From Anaerolineales bacterium (GTDB lineage: Bacteria > Chloroflexota > Anaerolineae > Promineifilales > Promineifilaceae): a stretch of 37,831 nucleotides of DNA. Made by a program: the position numbers and the translations under genes. The notes below the pieces were generated by a model, which was given only the letters and a program-made list of their open reading frames with translations, was not told where the DNA came from and did no database searches. Below, piece by piece: positions 29,142 through 30,559 of this stretch. The stretch is from positions 1-37,831 of the forward strand of contig WTJY01000470.1 in NCBI GenBank assembly GCA_011524645.1, in the 5' to 3' direction. Every line of letters starts with the position of its first letter. Position 1 is the first letter of the stretch.

Positions 29142-29687
29142 ATGACAAAACAATTGGAACGGGCGACATTAGGTGGTGGTTGCTTTTGGTGTACCGAAGC
29201 GGTTTACCTAGATGTAATCGGTGTAGAAAAAGTTGTTTCTGGCTATGCGGGTGGGGAGATTCCGAACCCGACATACGAGCAGATTTGTACCGGCCGTACC
29301 GGCCATGCGGAAGTGATCGATATTTATTACGATCCGGCCGAGATTTCTTTTGCGGAATTGCTCGATATTTTTTGGCAGACCCATGATCCGACCACGCTGA
29401 ATCGCCAAGGGGCGGATCGAGGAACACAGTATCGCTCGGTGATTTTTTACCATAGCGATGAACAAAAAGAGATTGCGGAACAGTCGATGGTGGCCGCTGA
29501 AGCGGCTGGGGTTTGGCCAAACCGGTTTGTGACGGAAATTTCGCCTGTACCAACTGTGTATCCGGCCGAAGCATATCATCAAGATTACTATGCCAATAAC
29601 CCTTACCAAGGGTACTGTATGGTAGTGATTAGTCCGAAAATGCGTAAGTTTCGCCAAAAGTTTAAGGACAAAAGCAGAACCGCTTAA
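29142..29687 (+). CDS. msrA: peptide methionine-S-sulfoxide reductase MsrA
   Basis: 181 residues. The catalytic motif GGGCFWCTEA places the nucleophilic Cys14 near the N-terminus. GYAGGEIPNPTYEQICTG, GHAEVIDIYYDP, FWQTHDPTTLNRQGADRGTQ (about 84-103) and the YHQDYYANNP end are all typical. It reduces methionine-S-sulfoxide in proteins with thioredoxin as donor. GAGGT precedes ATG 29142. It follows recR by 33 bp and may share that transcript. The C-terminal cysteine is limited to the YCMVVI segment, so the recycling cysteine may be that residue or Cys17. Confidence 0.95.
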   Translation: MTKQLERATLGGGCFWCTEAVYLDVIGVEKVVSGYAGGEIPNPTYEQICTGRTGHAEVIDIYYDPAEISFAELLDIFWQTHDPTTLNRQGADRGTQYRSVIFYHSDEQKEIAEQSMVAAEAAGVWPNRFVTEISPVPTVYPAEAYHQDYYANNPYQGYCMVVISPKMRKFRQKFKDKSRTA

Positions 29688-29696
29688 CATAAAACC

Positions 29697-29725
29697 GTGA
29701 CAACTCGGGCCGAGTTTGCTACAAT
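29697..29725 (+). promoter_or_regulatory. rpsD promoter
   Basis: GTGACA (29697-29702), an ideal 17-bp spacer, and TACAAT (29720-29725). The predicted start is near 29732, which gives rpsD a leader of about 112 nt. Confidence 0.65.
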
Positions 29726-29730
29726 TCTTG

Positions 29731-29834
29731 GCCGCTGAGAAATTGACAAATTAAAACCAAGTGCGACTGATTCCGTAGATGAAGCAGTCGCGCTTTTTTG
29801 TGTCTCAGCCATTTGCTTAATTTGTGATTCGGAG
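29731..29834 (+). promoter_or_regulatory. rpsD 5' leader: attenuator hairpin plus possible pseudoknot
   Basis: The leader has three helices. P1 pairs GCTGAGA (29734-29740) with TCTCAGC (29803-29809). P2 is an 11-bp hairpin (29759-29769 with 29785-29795) ending in six T's, a complete intrinsic terminator. P3 pairs ACAAATTAA (29746-29754) with TTAATTTGT (29817-29825). P1 and P3 cross, so they would form a pseudoknot ending 5 nt before the Shine-Dalgarno GGAG (29831-29834). S4 is known to repress its own mRNA in E. coli through a pseudoknot and in Bacillus through a leader. That this leader does the same is inference. P2 could instead simply terminate msrA transcripts. Confidence 0.5.
29759..29799 (+). 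terminator. intrinsic terminator inside the msrA-rpsD gap
   Basis: Stem AAGTGCGACTG / CAGTCGCGCTT (one G-T pair), loop of 15 nt, then T6. It can end msrA read-through or attenuate rpsD, depending on where transcription starts. Confidence 0.8.
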
Positions 29835-29843
29835 AAAAATCGC

Positions 29844-30452
29844 ATGAAATATACAGGACCAAAAGTACGTCTTTCACGCCGTTTGGGCGTCCCGTTGACC
29901 GATAAAGCGGCACGAATTATGGAAAAACGGCCGTATCCACCCGGCCAACATGGGCCAGCGAAACAATATCGTCGCGGCCGTCAATCTGCTTACGAACGTC
30001 AATTGTTGGAAAAACAACGGTTACGTTCACAATACAACATCCATGAACGCCAAATGCGGAACTACTACCGCAAAGCGGTTGGTATGGATGGCAACACCGG
30101 TGATAACTTGGTGCAATTGTTGGAAACTCGCCTAGACGCAGTTGTCTTGCGTTCAGGTTTGGCTCCTACGATCTATGCGGCTCGCCAATATGTGTCTCAT
30201 GGGCACGTGATGGTAAACGGCCGTCGGGTCAACATCGCTTCTTATCAAGTTGCGATTGGTGACAATGTATCAATTCGCCCGAAAAGCCAAAAAATGGACA
30301 TCTTCCAAGGTGCCATTGAGAACGCTTTCCCACCAGAATACATCTCTTTGGATAAAGGAACGATGTCATTCAGTGTGCTCTACTTGCCTCGCCGTACCGA
30401 AGTGCCGATTGTGTGCGAAGTGGCTCAGGTTGTGGAGTATTATTCACGTTAA
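29844..30452 (+). CDS. rpsD: 30S ribosomal protein S4
   Basis: 202 residues, the usual S4 length. It begins MKYTGPKVRLSRRLG and carries the conserved RPYPPGQHG motif (29-37). The S4 RNA-binding domain spans about 91-155 (RLDAVVLRSGLAPTIYAARQ, then YVSHGHVMVNGRRVNI). It binds the 5' domain of 16S rRNA early in assembly. The cysteine pairs of zinc-binding S4 forms are absent, so it is the zinc-free type. The gene is monocistronic here, outside the S13-S11-S4-alpha cluster, with its own promoter, structured leader and strong terminator. That layout is typical of autoregulated rpsD genes. Confidence 0.98.
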   Translation: MKYTGPKVRLSRRLGVPLTDKAARIMEKRPYPPGQHGPAKQYRRGRQSAYERQLLEKQRLRSQYNIHERQMRNYYRKAVGMDGNTGDNLVQLLETRLDAVVLRSGLAPTIYAARQYVSHGHVMVNGRRVNIASYQVAIGDNVSIRPKSQKMDIFQGAIENAFPPEYISLDKGTMSFSVLYLPRRTEVPIVCEVAQVVEYYSR

Positions 30453-30514
30453 TGGTTGCTGACCATTTTCGATTCATAGCAGGGTAAATTACCCCTCAGC
30501 AAATTAAGCAAATC

Positions 30515-30559
30515 AAAAACGGCCGTGTTTTCTTGATTAAGAAAACACGGCCGTTTTTT
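30515..30559 (+). terminator. intrinsic terminator of rpsD
   Basis: Very long stem: AAAAACGGCCGTGTTTTC (30515-30532) pairs with GAAAACACGGCCGTTTTT (30541-30558), extended by CTT/AAG into the loop, with a T6 tract. CGGCCG again forms the stem core. Confidence 0.92.

Follow-up and report, generated by a model that had tools for sequence, protein, structure and literature searches.

The rpsD locus and its genomic context

The window (the whole stretch of DNA analysed, 37,831 nucleotides) belongs to a draft Anaerolineae genome of 5.8 Mb that is 95% complete (G000). It carries rpsD, the only match to an S4 gene in this genome, which is preceded by recR and msrA. The comparison set comprised G000 and four further genomes of the same genus (G001, G002, G003 and G004), all of them drafts; five species carry this rpsD, corresponding to about three or four independent lineages. 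The nearest named relative of G000 is G003, deposited as Ardenticatenaceae bacterium. No further members of the genus with this leader were found in the family, class and viral collections. The gene and the main features of its leader are as follows.

29697..29725, + strand: sigma-70-type promoter GTGACA-17-TACAAT with an extended -10 TG (GTGACA at 29697-29702, 17 nt spacer, TACAAT at 29720-29725); transcript start predicted near 29732
29759..29799, + strand: P2, intrinsic-terminator hairpin followed by six U, a candidate attenuator, -18.0 kcal/mol (arms GTGCGACTG at 29761-29769 and CAGTCGCGC at 29785-29793; T6 at 29794-29799)
29831..29834, + strand: Shine-Dalgarno (SD) sequence GGAG, conserved; ATG at 29844
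29844..30452, + strand: rpsD, ribosomal protein S4, 202 aa (Pfam Ribosomal_S4, 7.6e-25; S4, 2.6e-17)

The alpha operon consists of rpsM-rpsK-rpoA without rpsD in G000, G003 and G004. The S4 protein of G000 shares 74-80% identity with S4 of the four other genomes of the genus and about 60-64% with S4 of Kapabacteria/Chlorobiota, but only about 45-49% with the S4 proteins of most members of its family. The alpha-operon rpsD has probably been replaced here by a foreign or divergent copy. A more distant relative (G009) has two S4 genes, one of the alpha-operon type and one divergent (G009:C124 and G009:C121), which perhaps represents a stage of such a replacement. In this genus, rpsD would then be a displaced, monocistronic transcription unit, which we consider moderately probable as part of a joint explanation that also includes attenuation and a clamp between the 5' and 3' ends of the mRNA. 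Outside the alpha operon the gene therefore needs control of its own, and a putative S4 autoregulation plausibly fits this gene context.

Promoter, leader terminator and the proposed pseudoknot

The promoter described in the first-pass annotation is present in the sequence, and equivalents with scores of 9-11/12 lie upstream of P2 in G001-G004, 6 nt upstream of the assumed transcript start. The internal terminator that was placed 44 nt before the start codon was likewise confirmed, this being the distance in G000 from the end of the P2 U tract to the ATG. The minimum free energy of the leader is -33.5, against a mean of -22.9 (sd 3.5) for dinucleotide shuffles, about three standard deviations better; P2 and the overall leader fold are clearly above chance. 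A GC-rich hairpin with a U tract lies between promoter and start codon in all five species (-18.0 to -20.7 kcal/mol, invariant U6, 41-65 nt upstream of the ATG), with 8-9 of the 9 pairs kept in each, and provides the structure conserved upstream of the gene that is characteristic of S4 leaders. Unguided RNAalifold recovers P2 with double changes. Its compensatory changes are few: 27 of 28 cells are paired in the directed count and two pairs are changed on both sides, a result equalled by 68 of 500 shuffles.

The msrA stop codon of G000 precedes P2 by about 70 nt, as would be expected if it were the msrA terminator only and rpsD were transcribed from a start further downstream. However, the gene upstream of rpsD is msrA in G000, a YceI-like gene in G003 and a sugar-binding regulator in G004, and P2 is kept behind these three unrelated genes as well as next to the divergently transcribed FG-GAP protein gene of G001 and G002. 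Moreover, each of the five genomes has a consensus promoter ahead of P2, and the interval from P2 to the ATG contained no promoter-like site. The msrA terminator reading is thus extremely unlikely, in agreement with the first-pass annotation, which had taken the hairpin to be more than that. A general genomic terminator was also considered and rejected, as the P2 stem pattern is confined to rpsD fronts: G000 and G003 each have a single occurrence, located before rpsD, and there is no other in the five genomes. Since P2 is kept behind differing or divergent upstream genes and its stem pattern is unique, the comparison supports a conserved leader attenuator, at which some transcripts would terminate. 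No antiterminator was found for P2, upstream segments pairing with its 5' arm by at most 4-6 bp.

Two further helices had been proposed to cross within the leader:

29734..29740, + strand: P1 5' arm GCTGAGA, in G000 only
29746..29754, + strand: P3 5' arm ACAAATTAA, which competes with the 3'UTR for 29817-29824
29803..29809, + strand: P1 3' arm TCTCAGC
29817..29825, + strand: P3 3' arm TTAATTTGT, overlapping helix A (described below)

As annotated, P1 (7 bp) and P3 (9 bp) are perfect in G000 and P3 ends 5 nt before the SD. A Watson-Crick helix of 9 bp between the leader halves occurs in 3% of dinucleotide shuffles and one of 7 bp in 30%, while a crossing arrangement of the size of P1 plus P3 occurs in 0.14%. 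P1 alone is therefore not above chance, and the crossing of P1 and P3 is moderately above it, with no correction for how the region was chosen. The crossing had been interpreted as an H-type pseudoknot at which bound S4 would block initiation, with covariation of P1 and P3 among relatives as a check set beforehand. Instead, the alignment shows that the helices are not kept in the four relatives: P1 keeps 2-4 of 7, P3 keeps 3-4 of 9, and no crossing pair is kept. In addition, the 3' arm of P3 shares bases with helix A, which is longer and covaries; in G000 the two helices are mutually exclusive. Unprompted, the relatives show a shorter helix that joins the 5' end of the leader to SD-adjacent bases (AGTAAC/GTTACT in G001, G002 and G004; about five pairs in G003), and P3 of G000 sits at a comparable place. 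The pseudoknot operator is unsupported, and S4 binding to it is very unlikely to be the means of control. Of the two control levels originally suggested, transcription from an own promoter through a conserved terminator hairpin is borne out, but the initiation block by P1 and P3 is not, as its pairs are not kept.

An alternative for G000 is a 7-bp hairpin (TGTGATT/AATCGCA, 29823-29844) that ends at the ATG and would hold the SD in its 8-nt loop. This candidate was set aside, being not clearly better than shuffles across the five genomes (0.08-0.48).

Predicted pairing between the leader and the 3'UTR of rpsD

A second set of features links the region before the SD with the short 3'UTR:

29811..29824, + strand: helix A 5' arm ATTTGCTTAATTTG, 6 nt upstream of the SD GGAG; conserved with covariation
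29842..29848, + strand: start-codon region GC-ATGAA, invariant in five genomes; tentative partner in helix B
30473..30484, + strand: conserved 3'UTR box TTCATAGCAGGG, 16-20 nt past the stop codon in all five
30482..30494, + strand: 3'UTR hairpin GGGTA-AAT-TACCC; GGG...CCC pairing occurs in the folded 3'UTRs of all five
30500..30513, + strand: helix A 3' arm CAAATTAAGCAAAT, perfect 14-nt complement of 29811-29824
30515..30558, + strand: rpsD transcription terminator, 20-bp stem with T tail, directly after the helix A 3' arm

From the sequence comparison, the best-supported structure of the rpsD mRNA is the predicted helix A, which lies partly outside the originally reported span of 29697-29843 and had escaped the first-pass annotation. 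The longest perfect complement between leader and 3'UTR measures 14 nt in G000 (shuffle P < 2e-4), 13 nt in G003 (TTTGTTTGTAGAG; P < 2e-4), 10 nt in G002 (TTTAGTCAGA; P = 0.0086), 11 nt in G001 (TTTTAGTCAGA; P = 0.0054) and 11 nt in G004 (TTTGGTCAGAT; P = 0.0046). The leader arm begins at -33 to -29 in 5/5 genomes, and its sequences differ. Swaps of non-cognate leaders and 3'UTRs give at most 8 nt, except between the near-identical G001 and G002. Among 131 rpsD loci from many phyla, a match at the helix A place occurs in this genus only; the roughly 125 loci outside the genus yield 0 matches at that place, and only three of them reach 10 nt or more. For the 28 other genes of the window, the leader/3'UTR complement does not exceed 10 nt. 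In a ten-pair block of helix A, 6 of 10 pairs are changed on both sides and 40 of 40 cells are paired, with none upon sliding one strand, although the blocks were picked by complementarity and the 100% pairing arises partly by construction; the shuffles, the swaps and the 131-locus control constitute the independent evidence.

Folding predictions point in the same direction. In whole-mRNA partition functions for each of the five genomes, the pairs of helix A average a probability of 0.81-0.97, and cofolding gives a ddG of -12.4 to -16.5 kcal/mol for cognate ends, compared with -3.5 to -11.3 kcal/mol for unrelated ends. RNAduplex, applied to the whole leader and the whole 3'UTR, does not separate them from shuffles because it ignores internal structure, whereas cofolding does. 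The rpsD mRNA has the extended complementarity beyond chance by which cis 5'-3' UTR pairing is recognized. A short inverted repeat flanking an S4 gene displaced from the alpha operon could also be read as the terminal repeat of a mobile element, or as a chance repeat. Yet the sequence of the match changes from one species to the next, with the two arms of any one species remaining perfectly complementary, and the third copy of the 14-mer in G000, like the two copies in G003, sits at an unrelated site that is not near rpsD. The probability of this reading is negligible.

The 3'UTR elements follow the same order in all five species, namely box, GGG/CCC hairpin, helix A arm and terminator, and the box consensus TTCATAGC[A/C]GGG is present in 5/5 rpsD 3'UTRs. 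As a genome-wide element the box was rejected: 5 of the 7 copies outside rpsD were examined, and all lie inside ORFs. The TTCATAGC motif is complementary to the start-codon region GC-ATGAA with one bulged A (helix B), an order that would extend helix A across the SD. In cofolds of G001-G004 the pairing of box and start codon appears, together with some pairing between SD and CCC. The whole-mRNA pair probability of helix B ranges from 0 to 0.63 and is negligible in G001 and G002, and there is no covariation in the five genomes, neither side being variable; helix B is a tentative element of the model.

Helix A itself ends 4-10 nt upstream of the SD and does not cover it in the manner of icaR. 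Repression is therefore not assured, and both repression and protection are possible. As the main rival to the repressing clamp that we favour, a real 5'-3' helix may protect the mRNA while the SD is left open, so that S4 output is raised with no need of S4 feedback. The place where helix A stops agrees with this, and so do the predicted accessibilities: the pairing probability of the SD with the 3'UTR is 0.01-0.45 in the five genomes, and inclusion of the 3'UTR has no consistent lowering effect among them on the predicted accessibility of SD and AUG. An abundant, stable S4 mRNA would also be expected, and B. subtilis hbs, with a helix of likewise 14 nt, is a direct precedent (PMC7821165). However, a clamp accounts better for the conserved TTCATAGC box facing the start codon and for the partial pairing of SD and CCC, and we regard protection as unlikely, though deserving serious consideration.

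Putative control of rpsD and its relation to known systems

On balance, we favour a displaced single-gene rpsD mRNA that combines leader attenuation with a clamp formed over the start site by the 5' and 3' UTRs, a combination somewhat more probable than not in our judgement. The two ends of the mRNA probably join to control the amount of S4. Transcription would begin upstream of P2, where some transcripts would end, leaving a leader RNA about 56-71 nt long, and read-through past P2 would yield the rpsD mRNA. In the full-length mRNA, the segment upstream of the SD would pair with the 3'UTR before the terminator (helix A, 10-14 perfect bp) and, together with the weaker pairing of box and start codon, may form a clamp across the ribosome-binding site. 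The icaR mRNA of S. aureus provides the model for such a clamp, which would lower translation or direct RNase III to the transcript. Through P3 in G000 and AGTAAC/GTTACT in G001, G002 and G004, the 5' portion of the leader would compete for the SD-proximal region and may oppose the clamp. By analogy with established ribosomal-protein biology, we infer both that S4 is the ligand and in which direction the control works: S4 in excess over 16S rRNA would bind the leader or the joined ends. A bipartite S4 operator, in which excess S4 binds a junction made only when both finished ends of the rpsD mRNA meet, seems rather unlikely; if true, it would place feedback on complete mRNAs, whose number is set by the leader terminator, and would divide a ribosomal-protein feedback element between the two UTRs.

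An intrinsic terminator inside the leader of a ribosomal-protein mRNA recalls the E. coli S10 leader, on which L4 causes transcription attenuation; for rpsD, unlike that leader, the ligand is only inferred and no antiterminator was found. S4 leaders are known from the E. coli alpha operon and from Bacillus and have been predicted in Bacteroidia, Clostridia, Flavobacteria and Fusobacteriales (PMC7247131). As in these, a structured RNA precedes the S4 gene, and Bacillus rpsD also stands alone with its own leader; unlike them, the element described here matches no Rfam family and spans both mRNA ends. No Rfam match at the gathering threshold was obtained in the window or in 18 relatives, consistent with the initial impression that this leader differs from known S4 leaders. 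RF00140 (Alpha_RBS) was not among the matches with E<=10 on 29500-30000, and the conserved pseudoknot enclosing the start site that defines it has no counterpart here, since P1 and P3 are not kept in the four relatives.

Pairing between the 5' and 3' UTRs of one mRNA is known from only a few bacterial examples. A review of 2021 described RNAIII/hld, icaR and hbs as cis pairs and left open the use of such pairing by other genes (PMC7821165). In S. aureus icaR, a 3'UTR UCCCC pairs directly with the SD, and the 5'-3' pairing leads to lower translation and exposure to RNase III (PMC3868564); in S. epidermidis it has no conserved partner (PMC7821165). The rpsD mRNA resembles that of icaR in being monocistronic and in pairing its 3'UTR with its own ribosome-binding-site region, but its main helix lies upstream of the SD and covaries across species, the gene encodes a ribosomal protein and the leader contains a terminator. 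In B. subtilis hbs, a 14-nt 5'-3' UTR helix shields the 5'UTR from RNase Y (Braun et al. 2017, in review PMC7821165). Like it, the rpsD mRNA would be a short, abundant housekeeping mRNA with a predicted 14-nt helix between the UTRs; unlike rpsD, hbs encodes HU, and the review mentions no leader terminator or start-codon box there.

An mRNA 3' end that regulates its own gene, as proposed for rpsD, is also found in OppZ and CarZ of Vibrio cholerae, 3'UTR-derived sRNAs with autoregulatory feedback that operate in trans (PMC7398697). With this precedent, the short rpsD 3'UTR with its strong terminator, its conserved box and its complement of the SD-proximal leader might act in trans, as an sRNA cut from the rpsD 3' end that pairs with other rpsD leaders. 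However, the predicted cis pairing already has a high probability in unprocessed mRNA and suffices for rpsD, and we consider action in trans improbable.

No published 5'-3' UTR pair in a ribosomal-protein mRNA was found in the open-access literature searched. If compensatory change has indeed preserved a 5'-3' helix in the mRNA of an essential ribosomal protein, such pairing can be under lasting selection, and ribosomal-protein regulatory elements, usually sought in 5' leaders only, may require consideration of both mRNA ends. Together with the leader attenuator, and following the exit from the alpha operon, the helix would provide a natural case of a displaced ribosomal-protein gene gaining new control.

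Helix A was not found in more distant S4 genes (G009, G020, G034, G286, G352 and Kapabacteria), some of which have structured leaders of other kinds. In the rpsD leader L115 (G352), a helix of 9-11 bp (CTAAAAACGGT/ACCGTTTTTAG) encloses a perfect 10-bp hairpin, a similar plan but without U6 and without 3'UTR complementarity. About 90 nt upstream of rpsD of Kapabacteria/Chlorobiota (L003, L004, L005 and L022), a common GTACC...GGTACG encloses a hairpin, and ACAAAAG...CTTTTGT adjoins the ATG; this is possibly a separate S4 leader. In L009 (G020) and L088 (G034), a hairpin loop GCTAC about 80 nt before rpsD is complementary to GTAGC just upstream of the SD, possibly forming a pseudoknotted S4 leader. 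Over the whole window, the palindrome CGGCCG was observed 146 times against 7.7 expected and ACGGCCGT 26 times against 0.5. CGGCCG is a highly iterated palindrome here, like HIP1, the highly iterated palindrome of cyanobacteria.
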